Shown: positions 1,492 to 64,000 of the stretch, in pieces
Layout of the letters: every line of letters starts with the position of its first letter
Numbering within the stretch: the first letter of the stretch is position 1
Assembly: GCF_014207705.1 (NCBI RefSeq)
Contig: NZ_JACHIU010000001.1
Coordinates: forward strand, 1,674,001 to 1,738,000
DNA length: 64,000 nucleotides
Direction: 5' to 3'
Origin: Sphaerisporangium rubeum
GTDB taxonomy: Bacteria; Actinomycetota; Actinomycetes; Streptosporangiales; Streptosporangiaceae
Notes under the pieces: generated by a model
Told to the model about the DNA's origin: nothing
Seen by the model: the letters and a program-made list of their open reading frames with translations, nothing else
Databases searched by the model: none
Position numbers and translations under genes: made by a program

Positions 1492-3933
1492 GTGCGGCTT
1501 GTGGTGATCGGGAACGGGATGGCGGGGGTGCGAGCGGTCGAGGAGATCCTCGCGCGAGGCGGCGGTGAGCGGTTCGACATCACGATCTTCGGGGACGAGC
1601 CGTACGGGAACTACAACCGGATCATGCTGTCGGAGGTGCTCGCGGGGAACGAGCCGGAGGACGCGATCTTCCTCAACGGCCTCGCGTGGTACGAGGAGAA
1701 CGGCATCACCCTGCGGGCCGGTGTGCGGGTGCGGCGCGTCAACCCGTTCGCGCGCAAGGTGTACTCCGACGACCGCGGCGTCACGCGGTACGACAAGCTG
1801 ATCATCGCCACCGGCAGCGTGCCGTACGTGCCGGACATCCCCGGCATGCGGGTCGCGGAGCGTGGCTTCCACCAGGGGGTCTTCACCTTCCGCACCATCG
1901 ACGACACCCGCAACATGCTCAGGTACGCCAAGGGTCACCGCCGTGCCGTGGTGATCGGCGGCGGGTTGCTCGGCCTGGAGGCGGCACGCGGCCTGCAGAA
2001 CCACGGCCTGGACATCACGCTCGTGCACGCCGGCGGTCACCTGATGAACCAGCAGCTCGACGCGCAGGCCGGTGCCGTGCTCAAACGCGCCGTGGAACGG
2101 CTCGGCATCCGGGTCGAGCTGAACGCCAGGACCAGCGCGGTGGAAGGCACCGAGAAGGTCACCGGCATCGGCCTCGCCGACGGCCGGTCCATCGACTGCG
2201 ACATGGTGGTGGTCGCGGCCGGCATCAGGCCGAACGCCGAGCTGGCGCGGGCCAGCGGCCTCGTCGTCGAGCGGGGTGTCGTCGTGGACGACCAGATGCG
2301 GGCCGTGGACGAGCCCGACATCTACGCCGTCGGCGAGTGCGCGCAGCACCGCGGCAAGGTGTACGGCGTGGTGGCGCCGCTGTGGGAGCAGGCACGCGTG
2401 CTGGCGGACCACATCACCGGGGCCGACCCGGCCGCCGCGTACCACGGGTCGCGGGTCGCCACCAAGCTCAAGGTGGCGGGGGTGAACGTCGCCGCCATGG
2501 GGGTCGCCGGGCCCGAGCGCGAGGACGACGAGTTCGTGGTGTTCGCCGAGCCGAGCCGCGGCACGTACAAGAGCGTCGTGGTGCGCGACGGCCGGCTGAT
2601 CGGCGCGACCCTGGTGGGGGACGTGGACAAGGTCGCCTTCCTCAGCCAGACGTTCGACCAGGGGCTGCCGCTGCCGGAGGAGCGGGTGCGGCTGCTGTTC
2701 GACCTCGGCGGCCCCTCGGCGGAGACGTCGGTGGCCGAGCTGTCCGACGACGCGCAGGTGTGCAACTGCAACGGCGTCAGCAAGCGGACCTTGGTGGAGA
2801 CCGTGCGCGGCGGTGTCAGGTCGGTCACAGGGGTCGCCGCCAAGACCCGCGCCGGCAAGGGTTGCGGCTCGTGCCGGTCCCTGGTGGAGCAGATCGTCGA
2901 CTGGGCCGCCGGTGGCGCGGCCGAGGTCGACCCGTCGGCGAACTGGTACGTGCCAGGGGTGCCGCTCGCCAAACCCGAGCTCATGGCCGAGATCCGGGCC
3001 CGTGGCCTGAAGTCGGTGTCCGCGGTCTTCGCGACCCTGGCCCCCGGCGGCGCGGAGGACGCCAGGAGCAAGATGGGGCTCGCGTCACTGCTGCGGGTCA
3101 TGTGGGCCGAGGAGTACGTCGACGAGCGCGACGCGCGGTTCATCAACGACCGCGTGCACGCCAACATCCAGCGGGACGGCACGTTCTCCGTCGTCCCGCA
3201 GATGAAAGGCGGCTGCACCACCCCCGACCAGCTGCGCCGCATCGCCGACGTCGCCGACAAGTACCGGGTGCCGCTGGTCAAGGTCACCGGCGGCCAGCGC
3301 ATCGACCTGCTCGGCGTGCGCAAGGAGGACCTGCCTGCCGTGTGGGCCGACCTCGGCATGCCGTCGGGCTACGCGTACGGCAAGAGCTTCCGCACGGTGA
3401 AGACCTGCGTCGGCACGGACTTCTGCCGCTACGGCCTCGGCGACTCCACGGCGCTCGGCATCGCGCTGGAGAGCACGTACCAGGGCCTGGAGGGACCGGG
3501 GAAGATGAAGCTCGCCGTCACCGGCTGTCCACGCAACTGCGCCGAGGCGTATGTCAAGGACGTCGGTGTGGTCGCGGTGGAAGGCGGCCGGTGGGAGATC
3601 TACGTCGGCGGCGCCGCGGGAGCGCACGTGCGCAAGGGTGACCTGCTGGCGACCGTCGCCACCCCCGAGGAGGTCGTCACCCTGACCGGCCGGTTCTTGC
3701 AGTACTACCGCGAGAACGCCAACTGGCTGGAACGCACGTACGCCTTCGTGCCGCGCGTCGGCGCCGACCACGTACGCGCCGTCGTGGTGGACGACGCCGA
3801 AGGCATCGCCGAGCGCCTCGACCGCGACGTCCAGGCGGCCGTGGCCGCCTACCGCGACCCCTGGCTGGAGGGCCGCGACCCCGCCACCCCCGGCCAGTTC
3901 CGTCCCGCGCTCCCCCTGATCGAGGTCCGGTGA
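1492..3933 (+). CDS. nirB: Assimilatory nitrite reductase [NAD(P)H] large subunit
   Basis: 813 aa, cytosolic; reduces nitrite to ammonium with NAD(P)H. Domain order: FAD/NAD-binding pyridine nucleotide-disulfide oxidoreductase at about 1-290, with IGNGMAG at the N-terminus and GGGLLGLEAA as the second dinucleotide site; a BFD-like [2Fe-2S] domain with C424, C426, C458 and C461; the ferredoxin-like half domain; then the siroheme/[4Fe-4S] domain with C639, C645, C679 and C683 (CX5C and CX3C). All cluster ligands are present, so the enzyme should be active. The GTG at 1492 is chosen because it begins the first FAD strand and has a strong Shine-Dalgarno 6 nt upstream. The stop overlaps the start of nirD by 4 bp (GTGA), which indicates translational coupling. 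Confidence 0.95.
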   Translation: MRLVVIGNGMAGVRAVEEILARGGGERFDITIFGDEPYGNYNRIMLSEVLAGNEPEDAIFLNGLAWYEENGITLRAGVRVRRVNPFARKVYSDDRGVTRYDKLIIATGSVPYVPDIPGMRVAERGFHQGVFTFRTIDDTRNMLRYAKGHRRAVVIGGGLLGLEAARGLQNHGLDITLVHAGGHLMNQQLDAQAGAVLKRAVERLGIRVELNARTSAVEGTEKVTGIGLADGRSIDCDMVVVAAGIRPNAELARASGLVVERGVVVDDQMRAVDEPDIYAVGECAQHRGKVYGVVAPLWEQARVLADHITGADPAAAYHGSRVATKLKVAGVNVAAMGVAGPEREDDEFVVFAEPSRGTYKSVVVRDGRLIGATLVGDVDKVAFLSQTFDQGLPLPEERVRLLFDLGGPSAETSVAELSDDAQVCNCNGVSKRTLVETVRGGVRSVTGVAAKTRAGKGCGSCRSLVEQIVDWAAGGAAEVDPSANWYVPGVPLAKPELMAEIRARGLKSVSAVFATLAPGGAEDARSKMGLASLLRVMWAEEYVDERDARFINDRVHANIQRDGTFSVVPQMKGGCTTPDQLRRIADVADKYRVPLVKVTGGQRIDLLGVRKEDLPAVWADLGMPSGYAYGKSFRTVKTCVGTDFCRYGLGDSTALGIALESTYQGLEGPGKMKLAVTGCPRNCAEAYVKDVGVVAVEGGRWEIYVGGAAGAHVRKGDLLATVATPEEVVTLTGRFLQYYRENANWLERTYAFVPRVGADHVRAVVVDDAEGIAERLDRDVQAAVAAYRDPWLEGRDPATPGQFRPALPLIEVR

Positions 3934-45714: not shown

Positions 45715-47091
45715 ATGCCGCTCCTCCAGGTGACAAACCTGACGGTCACCGTCCCCTCCACTCAGGAACCGGTCTTATCCGGCCGGAGGGCCGGCCGTGC
45801 TCCCCGGAGCGACATCACGCCAGGCGAGAGGGGAGATTCTCCCGCCGGCCGAGGCACCCCCGGCCGGCGTGATCATTTCGACGACGGCGCTTCCACCGGG
45901 GACGGTGGTGCTTCGGCCAGGGGTCACGCTCAGGGTCGCGGTGGTGATTCCGGCCGTGGAGGACTGTCCGGGGACCGCGCTTCCGCCGGGGACGGTGGTG
46001 CTTCAGCCAGGGGTCACGCTCAGGGTCGCGGTGGTGATTCCGGCCGTGGAGGAGTGTCCGGGGACCACGCTTCCGCCGGGGACGGTGGTGCGCAAGGAGA
46101 CGGTCGCGCTTGGGGGGGTTGGACCTCCCTCCTGACCTGGCTACCCCCTTACGGGCAAGACAGGTCCGTGGAGCCGGGGGTCCAGGTGGTACGTGGGGTG
46201 TCGTTCCGGGTCGAGGCGGGGGGTTCGCTGGCTTTGGTGGGGGAGAAGGGGAGTGGGGGGAGGGAGTGTGTGCGTGCGCTGGTGGGGGTGCCGAGAACGG
46301 CTCAGGTGTCGGGGGATGTGGTGTTCGACGGGACGGAGCCGGCGGGACGGACACGGGACGCGGCGATCGGGGTGGTTTCACCCGTGGCCACGAGCCGGCT
46401 GCATCCGTTGCGCCGGATCGGCGGTCAGCTCGCGGCACTGATCAGATCCGTCGACCACGGGGCCGGCCGGAAGGCGGCCCGTCGGCGAGCTGTGGAACTC
46501 CTCGCCGAGGTGGAGGTCGACGACCCGGCACGGTGCGCGAAGCAGTACCCGCACCGGCTCTCCCCGGAGACCCGGCAGCGCATCATGATCGCGATGGCCT
46601 TCGCTCCCCGTCCCGAGCTGCTGATCGCCGAGGAACCCGCAGAGGGTCTTCCCGTCTCGGCCGGTGCCGCCATCATCGACCTGATCCACCGCTTACGACA
46701 GGAATCCGGCACAGCCCTCCTGCTCGCCACCAGCAGCCTCGCGATCGCCACCGGCCTGACCGACGAGATCATCATGATGTACGCCGGTTTCCCCGTGGAA
46801 CGCGCCGCCCCCGCCACCATCCGCCACAACCCCCACCACCCGTACACCAAAGCCCTCCTCGAATCCTCCCTGGGTCATCCCCCGCCGACCTCCAGCGTCC
46901 CCTCGGGTTGCCCCTTCCACCTCCGCTGCCCCTACACCATGCCGGTCTGCGCAGCGGAACGTCCCCCCTTGTCCCGAGTCACCGGCGACGGCGACCACGC
47001 CTCCGCCTGCTGGCTCCCCCACGAAGCCACGGGCCTGGGTGAAGCCGCCGAGGCTCTCCGCCTCCGCTTCTCCCGTCCCGACCCGGCCTGA
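45715..47091 (+). CDS. Degenerate Opp/Dpp-type ABC ATPase with a repetitive insertion
   Basis: 458 aa. Starts like a DppD/OppD ATPase (MPLLQVTNLTVTVPS) and ends like one (HNPHHPYTKALLES, then GCPFHLRCPYTMPVC). Every catalytic motif is altered: Walker A is GEKGSGGRE (no Lys-Ser/Thr), the signature is LSPETRQR instead of LSGGxxQR, Walker B is LLIAEEPAEGL, and the H-loop is LLATSSLA without His. Residues about 25-140 are a Gly/Asp/Arg-rich insertion built from a 30-aa repeat. The frame is open throughout, so it may be a non-hydrolysing ABC protein under selection or a recent decay product. No permease or binding-protein gene is adjacent, which is unusual for this family. Confidence 0.72.
   Translation: MPLLQVTNLTVTVPSTQEPVLSGRRAGRAPRSDITPGERGDSPAGRGTPGRRDHFDDGASTGDGGASARGHAQGRGGDSGRGGLSGDRASAGDGGASARGHAQGRGGDSGRGGVSGDHASAGDGGAQGDGRAWGGWTSLLTWLPPYGQDRSVEPGVQVVRGVSFRVEAGGSLALVGEKGSGGRECVRALVGVPRTAQVSGDVVFDGTEPAGRTRDAAIGVVSPVATSRLHPLRRIGGQLAALIRSVDHGAGRKAARRRAVELLAEVEVDDPARCAKQYPHRLSPETRQRIMIAMAFAPRPELLIAEEPAEGLPVSAGAAIIDLIHRLRQESGTALLLATSSLAIATGLTDEIIMMYAGFPVERAAPATIRHNPHHPYTKALLESSLGHPPPTSSVPSGCPFHLRCPYTMPVCAAERPPLSRVTGDGDHASACWLPHEATGLGEAAEALRLRFSRPDPA
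45901..46091 (+). repeat. 90-bp tandem repeat (minisatellite) inside the ABC ATPase gene
   Basis: Two 90-bp units, 45901-45990 and 45991-46080, differ at only a few bases; a third begins at 46081 and breaks off after about 11 bp, and a partial unit precedes the first. Each encodes 30 residues beginning DGGASARGHAQGRGGDSGRG. Since 90 is a multiple of three, all forward frames stay open. Confidence 0.9.
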
Positions 47092-57199: not shown

Positions 57200-57877
57200 A
57201 TGAAAGGACGCGTGCTGGTCGTCGACGACGACGCGGCTCTCGCCGAGATGCTCGGCATTGTCCTTCGGGGCGAGGGCTTCGAGCCGTCGTTCGTATCCGA
57301 TGGAGACAAGGCGCTGGACGCGTTCCGTGACACCCGTCCTGATCTTGTCCTGCTGGACCTGATGCTGCCGGGAGCGGACGGCATCGACGTGTGCCGTCGC
57401 ATCCGGGCCGAGTCCGGCGTGCCGATCGTGATGCTCACCGCCAAGAGCGACACCATCGACGTGGTGCTCGGCCTGGAGTCCGGCGCCGACGACTACATCG
57501 TCAAGCCGTTCAAGCCCAAGGAGCTCGTCGCGCGGGTGCGGGCCCGGCTGCGCCGCACCGACGAGCCGACCCCCGAGGTGCTGCAGATCGGCGACATCAC
57601 CATCGACGTCGCCGGCCACTCGGTGAAGCGCGGCGAGGAGACGGTGAACCTCACCCCGCTGGAGTTCGACCTGCTGGTGGCGCTCGCGCGCAAGCCGCGC
57701 CAGGTCTTCACCCGCGAGGTGCTGCTGGAGCAGGTCTGGGGCTACCGCCACGCGGCCGACACGCGCCTGGTGAACGTCCACGTCCAGCGGCTGCGCGCCA
57801 AGATCGAGAAGGACCCCGAGCACCCCGAGATCGTGGTGACCGTGCGCGGCGTGGGCTACAAGGCGGGCCCGGCGTAA
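57200..57877 (+). CDS. mtrA: Two-component response regulator MtrA
   Basis: 225 aa, OmpR/PhoB family. Receiver domain 1-120 with acidic pocket VVDDDAA, phosphoacceptor D53 in LVLLDLMLPG, the switch Thr in MLTAKS and Lys in VKPFKPKEL. Winged-helix domain about 130-225 with LTPLEFDLLVAL and RLVNVHVQRLRAKIEKDP recognition helix. MtrA controls cell division, cell-wall and developmental genes in actinobacteria and is essential in mycobacteria. ATG 57200 has GAGGGG 3 nt upstream. First gene of mtrA-mtrB-lpqB. Confidence 0.96.
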   Translation: MKGRVLVVDDDAALAEMLGIVLRGEGFEPSFVSDGDKALDAFRDTRPDLVLLDLMLPGADGIDVCRRIRAESGVPIVMLTAKSDTIDVVLGLESGADDYIVKPFKPKELVARVRARLRRTDEPTPEVLQIGDITIDVAGHSVKRGEETVNLTPLEFDLLVALARKPRQVFTREVLLEQVWGYRHAADTRLVNVHVQRLRAKIEKDPEHPEIVVTVRGVGYKAGPA

Positions 57878-57907: not shown

Positions 57908-59659
57908 ATGTCCTCCCTCACCTCCGCGCGCGGCCCGGCGCGCCCCAAACCGAAGAAGAAGACGCGGCGCACGCCGCGCCAGATCGTGCGCGGGGCGCGC
58001 AGGCGGGCCCGCCGCACGGCGGGGAAGGTGCGCCGCGTCTGGCGGCGCTCCCTCCAGCTCCGCGTGGTCACGAGCACCTTGGTGATCTCGATGACCGTGG
58101 TCGCGGTCCTCGGGTTCTTCCTCATGCAGATGATCGACACGGCGGTGCTGCGCGGACGCATCAACTCCGCCACGTCCGAGGCGCAGGCCAACGTGACGAC
58201 CGTCGCGAGCTACCTCACCCAGCCCGCCGTGACGCCGAACCGGCAGTCCGCCTCGGCGCCGGACGGCGACGGCGACGTCCAGATGGACAGCGCCGTCGAC
58301 CAGGCCGCCGACGCGCTCGCGCGGCGGGCCGAGTCGCGGTACAGCGTGGTGATCCTCAACGCCGACCGGGTGGGGGAGGACCGCGGCACCGGGGCCGTCG
58401 ACCCGCGCAGCGTGACGGCGAAGCTGCGCGACAAGGTGCGGCAGGTCAAGGACGTGCCGCAGGCCATGTACACCTCGCTGTACTACGCCGGTGACGACAG
58501 GCCCGTGCCGGCGCTCGCCATCGGAGCGCTGGTCCCCACGCTGTACGGCGACTACGAGGTCTACCACTTCTTCCCGCTCGAGGACGACGTGCACACCTTG
58601 TCGCTGGTGCAGCAGTGGCTCGTCGTGGTCGGCGCGGCCCTGGTGCTGCTGCTCGCCGCCGTCGCGTTCCTGGTGACCCGGCAGGTCGTCACACCGGTAC
58701 GGCTCACCCGGCAGGCCGCCGAACGCCTCGCCGCCGGCCGCCTGGAGGAACGGCTGCGGATCCGCGGCGAGGACGACCTCGCGCGGCTCGCGGTGTCGTT
58801 CAACGAGATGGCGTCCAACCTCGCGCTCAAGATCCACCAGCTTGAGGAGCTGTCGCACGTCCAGCGGCAGTTCGTCTCCGACGTCTCCCACGAGCTGCGC
58901 ACCCCGCTCACCACCGTCCGCATGGCCGCCGACCTGCTGTACGAGGCGCGAGAGGACTTCGAGCCCGCCGCCGCGCGGTCGGCCGAGCTCATGCAGGCCC
59001 AGCTCGAACGCTTCGAGTCCATGCTCGCCGACCTGCTCGAGATCAGCCGGTACGACGCGGGGGCCGCGACCCTGGACGTCGACTCGGTGGACATGCGGGA
59101 CGTCGTGCTGCGCGCCGTCGGCGACTCCCAGCCGCTGGCCGAGCGCAAGTCGACCCGGCTCGACCTGCGGCTGCCGAACGAGCCGTGCATGGCCGAGGTG
59201 GAGAGCCGCCGGGTGGAGCGCATCCTGCGCAACCTGCTGTTCAACGCCATCGAACACGGCGAGGGCCGCGACATCGTGGTCACCCTCGGGGCCGACCGCG
59301 ACTCGGTGGCGGTGGCCGTACGCGACCACGGGGTCGGGCTGAAGCCCGGCGAGGAGAACATGGTGTTCGACCGCTTCTGGCGCGCCGACCCGTCGAGGGC
59401 CCGCACCATCGGCGGCACCGGGCTCGGGCTCGCCATCTCGCGCGAGGACGCGCAGCTGCACGGCGGGTGGCTCCAGGCGTGGGGCATGCCGGGGGAGGGG
59501 TCGCAGTTCCGGCTCTCCCTGCCGCGGCAGGCCGGGGCCGAGCTGCGCGGGTCGCCGCTGCCGCTGGTGCCGCCGGAGGTCGAGATGCGCCGCCACTGGC
59601 GCGGCGCCGCCACGCCGGTGCTGTCCCCGGCGATCGAGAGGCACTTCGATGGCGACTGA
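57908..59659 (+). CDS. mtrB: Sensor histidine kinase MtrB
   Basis: 583 aa. A basic cytoplasmic N-terminus of 45 residues (KPKKKTRRTPRQIVRGARRR), TM1 at about 48-72, an extracytoplasmic sensor of about 160 residues, TM2 at about 237-258, HAMP, then the DHp helix with the phospho-acceptor H328 in DVSHELRTPL. The ATP domain has the N-box LLFNAIEHGEG, G1 VRDHGVGLKPGE and G2 GGTGLGLAIS. Phosphorylates MtrA; the lipoprotein LpqB encoded next is thought to modulate it. 30 bp after mtrA; its 3' end overlaps lpqB by 11 bp. Confidence 0.95.
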   Translation: MSSLTSARGPARPKPKKKTRRTPRQIVRGARRRARRTAGKVRRVWRRSLQLRVVTSTLVISMTVVAVLGFFLMQMIDTAVLRGRINSATSEAQANVTTVASYLTQPAVTPNRQSASAPDGDGDVQMDSAVDQAADALARRAESRYSVVILNADRVGEDRGTGAVDPRSVTAKLRDKVRQVKDVPQAMYTSLYYAGDDRPVPALAIGALVPTLYGDYEVYHFFPLEDDVHTLSLVQQWLVVVGAALVLLLAAVAFLVTRQVVTPVRLTRQAAERLAAGRLEERLRIRGEDDLARLAVSFNEMASNLALKIHQLEELSHVQRQFVSDVSHELRTPLTTVRMAADLLYEAREDFEPAAARSAELMQAQLERFESMLADLLEISRYDAGAATLDVDSVDMRDVVLRAVGDSQPLAERKSTRLDLRLPNEPCMAEVESRRVERILRNLLFNAIEHGEGRDIVVTLGADRDSVAVAVRDHGVGLKPGEENMVFDRFWRADPSRARTIGGTGLGLAISREDAQLHGGWLQAWGMPGEGSQFRLSLPRQAGAELRGSPLPLVPPEVEMRRHWRGAATPVLSPAIERHFDGD

Positions 59660-61427
59660 CCTCCGCTCCCGTACCCGGCGGCTGGCCGGCTGCCTGGTCG
59701 CGCTGCTGGCCGCCGTGGCCTGCGCGTCCTGCTCCACGGTGCCGGCGGGAGGCAACATCTTCGAGGCCCGGGGGGCCAGCGAGGGCGACCCCCTCAGCCA
59801 GCCGTTCGTGCGCATCCTCGCCGCCGATCCCAAGCCGAACGGCTCGCCGCAGGACATCGTCGGAGGTTTCCTCGCCGCGGCGGCCGGCTTCGACGACCCT
59901 GTGCGCACCGTCGCGCGCAAGTACCTCACCGGAGAGGCGCAACGCGGCTGGAGCCCGTTCGACGCGACCACCATCTACGACCAGCGGTCACTGACCAGCG
60001 AACCGCTGCGGGAAGGCATGCAGCAGGTGCGGGTCACGCTCCGTACCACGCTGCTCGGCAGCATGGACGGCGACGGTCACTACGTGCCGAGCGACACCGA
60101 AGGCGCGTCCGAGCGGAGCCTGGACTTCATGCTGGTCAAGGTGGCGGGCCAGTGGCGCATCTCGTCCGCGCCGTCCGGGCTGCTGCTGTCCGACGACGAC
60201 TTCAAGCGGGCCTACCGGCCGTTCGACCTGAACTTCGCGGCCGAAGGCGCCGAAGGTCTCGTCGTGGACCAGGTCCGCATCCCGATCAACCCCAGCGAGA
60301 GCATCGCCAAGTCGCTCGTGCACCGCCTCATCGACGGCCCGACCCGGCCGCTGCGCGGGGCCGTCAGGTCCGCGTTCGGCAGCAACGTGGACGTCAACAG
60401 CGTGGTGGTGGACGGCGACCTGGTGGTCGTGGACTTCACCTACGGCATCGTCGACTCGGTGCGCGAGTCCGCCGACCGCGAGGCGCTGTCCGCGCAGCTC
60501 GCGTGGACGCTCAAGCCGATGACCGAGTCGCGGCGCATCGAGGTGCGCGTCAACGGCGAGACCTTCCCCGGCGGCACGTTCGTCATCGACCCGCGTGACT
60601 ACGAACGCTTCGCCCCCGACGTCCTGTCCGGCGAGGCCCAGGCGTACTACCTGCAACAGGGCAAACTCCACCTGATCGACAAGGACCGCGACAACCCCGT
60701 CCTGGTGGACCCCGGCGAGGCGCAGAACCGCCGCTTCACCGACCTGGCCGTCTCCTACGAACGCTCCACCAAGATCGCCGCGCTGGCGCAAGGCGGCGGC
60801 GTCTGGGTGAGCGGCACCACTCCCGGCAGCCAGTGGCAACGCTGGATCCCCGGCGCCAAGCCCACCGCCCCCTCATGGGACCGCTACGGCTTCGTCTGGT
60901 CCGTGACCAAGGACGACGGCACCTCCAAGGTCTTCCGCTCCGGCGGCCCCTCCGGCCCCCCCACCCAGTTCAGCGCACCCCAACTGGCCGCCACCGACGT
61001 CACCGCCTTCCGCGTGGCACGCGACGGCGCCAGAGTCGCCGTCATCTCCGACGACGGCAACGGCCAACGCGTAATGGTCGGCACCATCGACCGCGCCAAA
61101 CTGGCCGTCCAGAACCTCCGCGTCCTCGTCCCCGCCGAAGACGCTCAAGAGATCAGCGCCATAGCGTGGCGCGACGCCAGCACCCTCCTGGTCCTCACCA
61201 AGACCAAATCAGAACGCGAACTCACCCCCTGGTCCGTAACCCAAGGCATCCGAGCCGACACCGCCAAAGCCGCCAGCAGCATAGAGTCCATAACCGCCGC
61301 CCCCGACCCCCTCCCCGTCCTCGCCGCCCGCGCCAACGGCGGCATAGTCGCCTGGGACCCCCAAAAGAAACAGTGGACCACCCTCGTCGAATCCGGCGCC
61401 GGCCCCCCGGTCTACCCCCTCGGCTGA
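59649..61427 (+). CDS. lpqB: Lipoprotein LpqB, GerMN domain
   Basis: 592 aa. Signal peptide with a basic start (MATDLRSRTRR), hydrophobic core and a lipobox in which C28 (CASCSTVPAGG) is the likely lipidated Cys; C25 is an alternative. A GerMN domain spans about 200-320 (FGSNVDVNSVVVDGDLVVVDF), followed by a beta-propeller-like half. LpqB links to the MtrB sensor at the outer membrane face of the cytoplasmic membrane. ATG 59649 lies inside mtrB. The last 27 bp, encoding GPPVYPLG and the stop, are the seed of the 89-bp tandem array that follows. From about 60600 on the coding strand becomes C-rich. Confidence 0.94.
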   Translation: MATDLRSRTRRLAGCLVALLAAVACASCSTVPAGGNIFEARGASEGDPLSQPFVRILAADPKPNGSPQDIVGGFLAAAAGFDDPVRTVARKYLTGEAQRGWSPFDATTIYDQRSLTSEPLREGMQQVRVTLRTTLLGSMDGDGHYVPSDTEGASERSLDFMLVKVAGQWRISSAPSGLLLSDDDFKRAYRPFDLNFAAEGAEGLVVDQVRIPINPSESIAKSLVHRLIDGPTRPLRGAVRSAFGSNVDVNSVVVDGDLVVVDFTYGIVDSVRESADREALSAQLAWTLKPMTESRRIEVRVNGETFPGGTFVIDPRDYERFAPDVLSGEAQAYYLQQGKLHLIDKDRDNPVLVDPGEAQNRRFTDLAVSYERSTKIAALAQGGGVWVSGTTPGSQWQRWIPGAKPTAPSWDRYGFVWSVTKDDGTSKVFRSGGPSGPPTQFSAPQLAATDVTAFRVARDGARVAVISDDGNGQRVMVGTIDRAKLAVQNLRVLVPAEDAQEISAIAWRDASTLLVLTKTKSERELTPWSVTQGIRADTAKAASSIESITAAPDPLPVLAARANGGIVAWDPQKKQWTTLVESGAGPPVYPLG

Positions 61428-62090
61428 CCCCCTGTAACTCGACCGAAGCCGAACGACTCGGCTGTGTCCGAGCAGCTCTCTTCCGCTGTCGGCCCCCGGT
61501 CTCCCCTCTCGGCTGACCCCCTGTAACTCGACCGAAGCCGAACGACTCGGCTGTGTCCGAGCAGCTCTCTTCCGCTGTCGGCCCCCGGTCTCCCCTCTCG
61601 GCTGACCCCCTGTAACTCGACCGAAGCCGAACGACTCGGCTGTGTCCGAGCAGCTCTCTTCCGCTGTCGGCCCCCGGTCTCCCCTCTCGGCTGACCCCCT
61701 GTAACTCGACCGAAGCCGAACGACTCGGCTGTGTCCGAGCAGCTCTCTTCCGCTGTCGGCCCCCGGTCTCCCCTCTCGGCTGACCCCCTGTAACTCGACC
61801 GAAGCCGAACGACTCGGCTGTGTCCGAGCAGCTCTCTTCCGCTGTCGGCCCCCGGTCTCCCCTCTCGGCTGACCCAGTAACCCGACCGAAGCCGAACGAC
61901 TCGGCTGTGTGCGGGCTGCTTCCTTTCGGGGTCGGCTCTTCGGTCTGCCTTCTCGGTTGGCCCCTTGTAGGTCGATTGGAGTCGAACGACTCGACTGTGT
62001 GCGGGCTGCTTCCTTTCGGTGTCGGCTCTCCGGTCTACCCGCTCGATTGATCCCCTTCAAGTCGACCGGAGCCGAACGACTCGACCTCGT
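61401..62090. repeat. 89-bp tandem array seeded from the 3' end of lpqB
   Basis: Units start (taking GACCGAAGCC as reference) at 61441, 61530, 61619, 61708 and 61797, each exactly 89 bp and near-identical, then diverged units at 61884, 61974 and 62064. Every near-identical unit contains a copy of the lpqB end including CTCGGCTGA. Each has a hairpin AGCCGA-ACGAC-TCGGCT; in the unit at 61974 both arms changed together (AGTCGA/TCGACT) and still pair. The array is not a CRISPR: units are adjacent, with no spacers. Since 89 is not a multiple of three, the long ORFs across it are accidental. Confidence 0.95.
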
Positions 62091-62115
62091 CCGGACCGCT
62101 CCCTCCGGAGGGGAG

Positions 62116-62176
62116 TCGGCGCCGACGCGGTGGGACGTCGTACGGTGAATCCGGCGCCTTCGTACGGTGGCCGGCG
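62116..62176 (+). repeat. Dispersed comF-flanking element, copy A
   Basis: Begins TCGGCGCCGACGCGG and contains GAATCCGGCGCC and TCGTACGGTGG. About 91% identical over 53 bp to the inverted copy D at 63308-63360 (five differences by eye). Confidence 0.75.
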
Positions 62177-62215
62177 TGGCTGTGCACGGTGTGTTCCGTC
62201 CGGTGGTGTGGACGG

Positions 62216-62277
62216 GGCGACGCCGAGGCGGTGGGGTGGTGCACGGCGAATCCGGCGCCGTCGTACGGCGGCCGGCC
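62216..62277 (+). repeat. Dispersed comF-flanking element, copy B
   Basis: Same core, CACGGCGAATCCGGCGCCGT followed by CGTACGGCGG, in direct orientation to copy A; the 5' part is more diverged. Upstream GTTCCGTCCGGTGGTGT also resembles sequence before copy C, so the repeated segment may be longer. Confidence 0.7.
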
Positions 62278-62470
62278 GGTCCGGGTCAGGTTGCCGACGG
62301 AGTCGGCATGTCTCGGCCGCGTATGGTCTGTTGCCCCTGTTGGTATGGCTTGCCGGGTTTCTGCGTGGCGGGGGTCGCACTCGGAGTCGGTGCAGGCCGG
62401 TCGTGTGCCGATCGGAGTCCACGTGACCCCGCCGTGCATGATCTGTTCTGTACGGTGGTGTCGTTTGGAA

Positions 62471-62530
62471 CGGCGCCGACGCGATCGGATGGTGTACGGC
62501 GAATCCGGCGCCGTCGTACGGCGGTCGGCG
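62471..62530 (+). repeat. Dispersed comF-flanking element, copy C
   Basis: CGGCGCCGACGCGATCGG, then TACGGCGAATCCGGCGCCGT and CGTACGGCGGTCGG. Direct orientation, about 100 bp before the comF start. Confidence 0.75.
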
Positions 62531-62626
62531 TGGCTGGGACGGGTACCGGCTGACGTTTGTGGCCGAGTGTGGACAGTGGGGTCGGGTGGAGGTGGTTTCG
62601 TCGGTGCGGGTCGGCATGGTGGAGGG

Positions 62627-63298
62627 GTGTTGTCCGCCTTTCTCGATCTGGTTCTGCCGCAGAGCTGTGCCGGGTGTGCGCTGCCAGGTGCGGTGGTGTG
62701 TTCCGTCTGTGCCGAGGAACTGCACGCCGACCCCGCGCCGCGTCCACCCGTCCCCGCGCCACGTGGCATGCCGGAGTGCTGGTCGGCGGCTCCCTACCGC
62801 GGAGCCGCACGCGGACTGGTCCTCGCCTACAAGGAACGTGGCCGCACGGCCCTGATCCGGCCGCTGGCCGACGTTCTGGCCACGGTGCTGCTCTCTGTCC
62901 CGGCGTTACCTACCGGCCCGCTGACGCTGGTTCCTGTGCCGAGCGCGCGGTCGGCGGTGCGACGGCGTGGCCACGATCCCGTGGCCCGCCTCGCCGCGGC
63001 CACGGCCGCGCGACTCCGCACCCTCGGCCTCCCGGCATCCTGCACTCCCGCGCTCCGGCACCACCGCCGCGTCCGCGACCAGGCCGGCCTCACCGCCACC
63101 GAGCGCGCCGCCAACCTCTCGAACGCTTTCGCCGTACGCCGCCGCCGGCCCACCCGGCCTCCCGTCACGGCCGTCCTCGTCGACGACATCGTGACCACCG
63201 GCACCACCCTCACCGAAGCCGCCACCACCCTACGCCGCACCGGCATCCCCGTCCCCCTGGCGATCACCCTCACCGCCACTCCGCGCCTCCGCCGCTGA
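62627..63298 (+). CDS. comF: ComF-family phosphoribosyltransferase-like protein
   Basis: 223 aa from GTG 62627 (or TTG 62630, better spaced from GGAGG at 62621). N-terminal zinc ribbon LPQSCAGCALPG and VCSVCAEEL (CxxC pairs), then a type I PRTase fold: YRGAARGLVLAYKERGR, VPVPSARSAVRRRGHDPV and the PRPP loop VLVDDIVTTGTTL. ComF is a DNA-uptake protein in Bacillus; in actinobacteria its role is unclear and a helicase-linked DNA function is possible. It lies between lpqB and the expected hpf/secA genes, as in M. tuberculosis Rv3242c. The coding strand shifts from G-rich to C-rich along the gene. Confidence 0.85.
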   Translation: MLSAFLDLVLPQSCAGCALPGAVVCSVCAEELHADPAPRPPVPAPRGMPECWSAAPYRGAARGLVLAYKERGRTALIRPLADVLATVLLSVPALPTGPLTLVPVPSARSAVRRRGHDPVARLAAATAARLRTLGLPASCTPALRHHRRVRDQAGLTATERAANLSNAFAVRRRRPTRPPVTAVLVDDIVTTGTTLTEAATTLRRTGIPVPLAITLTATPRLRR

Positions 63299-63307
63299 CC
63301 GGCTGAG

Positions 63308-63360
63308 CGCCGTACGACGGCGCCGGATCCGCCGTACGACGTCCCGCCGCGTCGGCGCCG
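63308..63360 (-). repeat. Dispersed comF-flanking element, copy D (inverted)
   Basis: Begins 10 bp after the comF stop. Its reverse complement, CGGCGCCGACGCGGCGGGAC and onward to CGTACGGCG, matches copy A at 48 of 53 positions. Together with copies A-C it brackets comF as an inverted repeat. It may also fold as a 3' hairpin. Confidence 0.8.
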
Positions 63361-63545
63361 CTTCAATCGACTCCGAGGCGGAGCAAGTCCTGTGCGGCGC
63401 GCTTATGTCGGTGAGCTGCCTGTGGCGCGGTCTACTCCAACCTCCCGGCAAACGGGCCCTGTCTTTCGCGGTCTTGCCGCCATGTCCAGCTCGGCCTCAA
63501 GTACGCCGACGAGCCGGTCCGAAGTCTCTCCACGCGGAGATCTCG
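63361..63545. other. Non-coding sequence after comF
   Basis: 185 bp between the inverted element and the 19-bp array. No ORF with a ribosome-binding site, promoter or RNA gene is recognisable. Confidence 0.4.
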
Positions 63546-63737
63546 ATCCGCCGTGCTGGTCTCTATCCGCCGTGCTGGTCTCTATCCGTCGCGCCGGTCT
63601 CCGATCCACCGCACCGGTCTCCCTTCTCCGGGCTGGTCTTCGTCCACGGCGCTGGTCTTCGTCCACGGCGCTGGTCTTCGTCCACGGCGCTGGTCTTCGT
63701 CCACGGCGCTGGTCCTCCTCCACGGCGCTGGTCTTCG
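63546..63737. repeat. 19-bp tandem array
   Basis: About ten units. Five near-perfect GTCCACGGCGCTGGTCTTC copies start at 63642, 63661, 63680, 63699 and 63718; five diverged ones (ATCCGCCGTGCTGGTCTCT type) start at 63546, 63565, 63584, 63604 and 63623. The period of 19 excludes a conserved reading frame. Confidence 0.9.
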
Positions 63738-64000
63738 TCCAGCGGCTGGCGGCGGGTGGTTGGAGGTGGAGGTTGGGGATCGGGGAGGTCACGGGTTGGC
63801 GACACGCCCGGGAAAAAAGGTGGATAGAAATCCTGGAGGTTACGAAAAGTAGTGGTTGGTGGGGTCGGGGGAGTGGCGGTGGGGGGACAGGTTGGTGGCG
63901 GGAGTGGTAGATGGCCTTGCTTGCAGGGGGAGTGAGGGGGTGGGGGTCGTACGGGGGTGGTGAGGGGGTGGGGAGTCAGGGGGAGTGGGGGGTGCGGTGG
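63738..64000 (+). other. G-rich tail, probably upstream of the next gene
   Basis: 263 bp with no complete gene. The plus strand has many G-runs (for example GGTGGGGTCGGGGGAG, GGTGGGGGGAC) from about 63860 on, with G-quadruplex potential. A purine-rich AT patch, GGTGGATAGAAATCC and TACGAAAAGTAG at about 63820-63852, could hold a promoter. The ribosome hibernation factor gene expected here in actinobacteria is not reached. Confidence 0.35.

Follow-up and report, generated by a model that had tools for sequence, protein, structure and literature searches.

The repeat array that directly follows the lipoprotein gene lpqB in Sphaerisporangium rubeum raises the question of whether it is a structured RNA element, in which base pairing has been kept by selection, or a minisatellite that grew out of the end of a gene. 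Its 89-bp units carry a candidate hairpin, AGCCGA-ACGAC-TCGGCT, and both possibilities were considered in an analysis of the surrounding 64,000 nucleotides of DNA (the window). Pfam assignments confirm the predicted gene order mtrA-mtrB-lpqB. The predicted gene beyond the array gives a weak match to phosphoribosyltransferases, but has the sequence and the position of the comF-like gene found by tblastn behind lpqB in relatives. The features are listed in Table 1.

Table 1. Features in and around the repeat array behind lpqB, with positions in the window.
Feature	Position	Strand	Basis or remark
MtrA-type response regulator gene	57200-57877	+	Pfam Response_reg and Trans_reg_C; gene order
MtrB-type sensor histidine kinase gene	57908-59659	+	Pfam HATPase_c, HisKA and HAMP
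lpqB, lipoprotein gene with the 3' end that seeded the array	59649-61427	+	Pfam Gmad1/LpqB beta-propeller and Germane
Last ~11 lpqB codons, coding part of the duplicated segment	61394-61427	+	Direct repeat with unit 8; conserved in congeners
Starts of units 1 to 8	61408, 61497, 61586, 61675, 61764, 61853, 61941, 62031		Lengths 89 (five units), 88, 90 and 89 bp
Units 1-5, 89 bp each	61408-61852	+	98-100% identity; units 2-5 identical
Candidate hairpin AGCCGA-ACGAC-TCGGCT, unit 1	61447-61463	+	Sequence; -7.9 kcal/mol; not beyond chance
Unit 6, 88 bp, hybrid	61853-61940	+	Alignment
Unit 7, 90 bp, diverged, both hairpin arms changed (hairpin 61980-61996)	61941-62030	+	Alignment
Unit 8, 89 bp, most diverged, stem broken, gene-like GTCTACCC retained	62031-62119	+	Alignment
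Start of dispersed REP-like elements, adjoining the array and separate from it	62117-62295	+	Matches in own genome and genus
ComF-like phosphoribosyltransferase gene, downstream	62627-63298	+	Pfam Pribosyltran below gathering cut-off; position

Tandem Repeats Finder reports a single array at 61404-62083, with a period of 89, 7.6 copies, 91% matches and a score of 1027. With unit boundaries set at the common word CGGTCT, eight units of 88-90 bp can be aligned, extending from the final lpqB codons (61408) to about 62119. The original observation of five near-identical units followed by three diverged ones is confirmed, with positions shifted by a few bases. Unit 1 differs from units 2-5 at two positions, both of which lie within lpqB codons. 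The 5' half of unit 6 is that of units 2-5, except for a small indel region, while its 3' half is that of unit 7; substitutions relative to the consensus number 12 in unit 6, 20 in unit 7 and 26 in unit 8. No tandem array scored higher in an 864-kb sample of the genome (12% of the total). The array has the form of a minisatellite, with a head-to-tail unit in the 10-100 bp range, and stands far above chance, whereas the hairpin by itself does not. A coding reading of the array, as a 283-amino-acid antisense open reading frame at 61209-62060, was rejected, this frame being a by-product of low stop density; since 89 is not divisible by three, each unit falls in a different reading frame.

The near-identical units had been proposed to copy the end of lpqB together with its stop codon. 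Their origin from the gene end is upheld, although the copying is inexact (GTCTCCCCTCTCGGCTGA vs GTCTACCCCCTCGGCTGA). A direct repeat shared by unit 8 and the gene reaches CCGGCGCCGGCCCCCCGGTCTACCC at 80% identity and the likeness continues upstream through CCGGCGCCGGC; the duplicated segment therefore included about the last 11 codons. Orthologues of lpqB are present in all ten congeners; two of these, L027 and L035, share the ending CCCCCGGTCTACCCCCTCGGCTGA exactly, and the others have a similar one. The array is absent from the ten congeners and from a sample of about 150 members of the family; none of the congeners has any array-like sequence 3' of the lpqB stop, and in a DNA search of 40 relatives the matches covered only the 25-29 bases of the gene end. 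That congeners have this lpqB ending but not the repeats shows which came first: the ending is ancestral and gave rise to the repeats, not the reverse. Thus, tandem duplication seeded by the 3' end of lpqB is supported, as congeners share the gene end and nothing else of the array. Further tandem arrays are present elsewhere in the 864-kb sample, several of them close behind genes; none overlaps a gene stop, and there is consequently no support for gene-end seeding as a general habit of this genome.

Among the genomes compared, the array is restricted to that of S. rubeum, a species represented by one genome. The nearest congeners, in which LpqB is 66% identical, are without it, and a covariance model built from the units, run against 11 genomes of the genus, picks out the eight units at the lpqB locus and nothing more. 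The exact unit has no match in the genome-contig collection, from which searches with lpqB peptide patterns recovered no relatives, and it was not found in the plasmid collection. Two additional GCCGAACGACTCGGC sites in the same genome were considered as further units and discarded, their flanks having no similarity to the unit.

The array lengthens the spacer between lpqB and comF. This gap is 1,199 bp here, comprising the array and dispersed repeats, as against 33-410 bp in 32 of the 33 relatives in which comF was located. The remaining relative, L035, has a 1214-bp gap with an apparent extra lipoprotein-like gene after the lpqB stop. In a member of another genus (L059), the gap contains an unrelated 28-bp array of 6.1 copies at about 3250-3430. 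This second, independent array suggests that repeats can expand in the spacer and that no particular sequence is needed there.

Other repeats are found nearby. The REP-like element adjoining the array is some 55-75 bp long with the core GGYGAATCCGGCGCC; it occurs at 62117-62190, 62218-62291 and 62471-62544, with an inverted copy at 63310-63360, and so flanks comF in inverted orientation. It has at least 51 matches in its own genome and matches in nine of 11 genus genomes, and is tandemly triplicated with a 143-bp period at about G000:C1:4128377-4128747. Downstream of comF there are 19-bp tandem arrays at 63541-63601 (TCTCTATCCGCCGTGCTGG, 3.2 copies) and 63632-63746 (GCTGGTCTTCGTCCACGGC, six copies), and a 90-bp tandem repeat with 2.3 copies and 95% matches is located at 45883-46091.

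If the units formed a structured RNA array under selection for pairing, they might act as serial terminators or as an RNase barrier, isolating comF transcription or stabilizing the 3' end of the mtrAB-lpqB mRNA. The observation that prompted this idea was reproduced: the hairpin is present in units 1-6, unit 7 is altered in both arms but still pairs (AGTCGA-ACGAC-TCGACT, at 61980 and not 61974), and unit 8 has lost two pairs (AGCCGA-ACGAC-TCGACC, at 62070). However, units 1-6 are not independent support, because near-identical copies all inherit the hairpin, and the change in both arms is one event among five distinct rows, equalled by 220 of 500 shuffles. The right-arm A is common to units 7 and 8, and in unit 8, where C faces A, the unpaired intermediate state is seen in an existing copy. 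By chance alone, 4-5% of simulations with two arm changes leave all six pairs intact, before correction for the post hoc choice of stem. Perfect stems of six pairs or more with a loop of 3-8 bases are found in 22% of random 89-mers from the same genome, and dinucleotide shuffling of the unit produces them in 12% of cases.

Structure beyond the named hairpin was also considered. A 21-pair consensus fold obtained with RNAalifold has three pairs changed on both sides, and so adds two to the hairpin case; the observed values are reached by 10-17 of 500 shuffles of the five distinct rows. The fold itself was derived from the rows tested, and the tool's notes warn that an appreciable fraction of alignments under no constraint give such values. 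Folds of single units are little better than those of shuffles (z from -0.4 to -1.6), and Rfam returned no meaningful match to the units, the sole match being a miRNA below threshold. An 11-column invariant core, CGAACGACTCG, runs through the diverged units and is slightly longer than in column shuffles (P 0.037); a weak constraint may act on the units. Intrinsic terminators combine a GC-rich stem with a U-tract, a combination that the units do not repeat. The stem is followed not by a U-tract but by GTGTCCGAG, and scanning for terminators gave one terminator-like site where 0.7 would be expected by chance, which argues against serial terminators. Absence of the hairpin from related genomes had been named as a refutation of the proposed selection, and it is borne out for the exact pattern, which none of 150 other family genomes contains, and, within the genus, for the unit model. 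Within the first 200 bp after lpqB a perfect 6-bp stem is missing in 27 of 34 relatives, with the hairpin of the array in none. Selection for the hairpin is therefore not supported: the single event in five rows, the frequency of its equal among shuffles, the broken stem of unit 8 and the unremarkable folds make the evidence too weak to count. A structured RNA array is accordingly an unlikely reading of the locus.

It is quite improbable that the array, once born from the gene end, was recruited as a tunable spacer, in which copy number would set the expression of comF relative to mtrAB-lpqB and each unit would keep a weakly conserved fold. An array of protein-binding sites, for example for MtrA, is very unlikely. 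Units 1-5 each contain one TGTAAC, at 89-bp spacing, the array is located in the mtrAB-lpqB operon, and the core noted above is conserved in all units. However, MtrA recognition sequences consist of two short direct repeats (PMC5650626), where the unit offers a single TGTAAC; this motif has been lost from units 7 and 8, and the regular spacing is a trivial result of tandem copying. It is hardly credible that assembly error explains how many identical units were counted. Units 2-5 total 356 bp and so exceed short reads, but the genome was assembled as one contig of 7.5 Mb, and units 1, 6, 7 and 8 all differ, so that they cannot come from stuttered assembly; whatever the exact count, the array truly has at least four to five units.

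The array is thus most probably a lineage-specific minisatellite, a VNTR-type locus in the lpqB-comF spacer that arose through tandem duplication together with unequal recombination. The segment duplicated in tandem would have comprised the last ~11 lpqB codons and about 56 bp of spacer, units 6-8 being the older copies, which have drifted. The gene-proximal copies may have been expanded or homogenised recently, through replication slippage or unequal recombination, with the hybrid unit 6 marking the edge of this wave. Such a process would leave the order seen here, in which identical copies lie next to lpqB and are followed by a hybrid and then by copies that have drifted. Unit 1 would be fixed in its position, held there because it is the end of the gene, and the hairpin would be a by-product of the repeated sequence. 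We infer that the array is close to neutral and that its copy number continues to vary; differences in copy number among strains would be expected, and the array might serve as a strain-typing marker. The main physical effect is likely to be that comF, which is normally close behind lpqB, has been shifted 1.2 kb away.

The nearest known kind is the mycobacterial MIRU-VNTR, and at most the lpqB array would work like such a minisatellite. Supply and colleagues are said to have described, in 1997, MIRUs in the senX3-regX3 two-component operon. Mycobacterial MIRU/VNTR loci have units of 40-100 bp in intergenic regions, one of them adjoining a DNA repair gene, and the lpqB array resembles them in its direct tandem units of this size, its intergenic placement among co-directional actinobacterial genes and its position close behind a stop codon (PMC2734929). 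VNTR3239 (ETR-F), for example, lies between rnc and fpg1, at 40 bp from the stop of the former and immediately ahead of the latter, and in M. tuberculosis longer VNTR3239 arrays accompany higher fpg1 mRNA; if copy number were to tune comF, the lpqB array would provide a parallel (PMC2734929). MIRUs, however, are found at several loci, 41 in the M. tuberculosis genome, whereas the lpqB unit occupies one locus of its own genome; as it is not dispersed, the array is not a MIRU. It also differs from MIRU-VNTRs in that its unit derives from the 3' end of the neighbouring gene itself. With REP and BIME sequences, which adjoin the array here as REP-like elements, it shares the character of a hairpin-bearing intergenic repeat, but those palindromic elements are dispersed, whereas the 89-bp unit is confined to one place in its genome. 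Many of the bacterial satellites and minisatellites described code for amino acid repeats, unlike the lpqB array, which is non-coding after the stop of unit 1; like it, they are short tandem arrays rarely transposed elsewhere in the genome (Subirana & Messeguer 2019, PMC6749651). Set beside these systems, the locus is an ordinary one, and offers a clean example of a minisatellite with an identifiable seed, the end of a gene.
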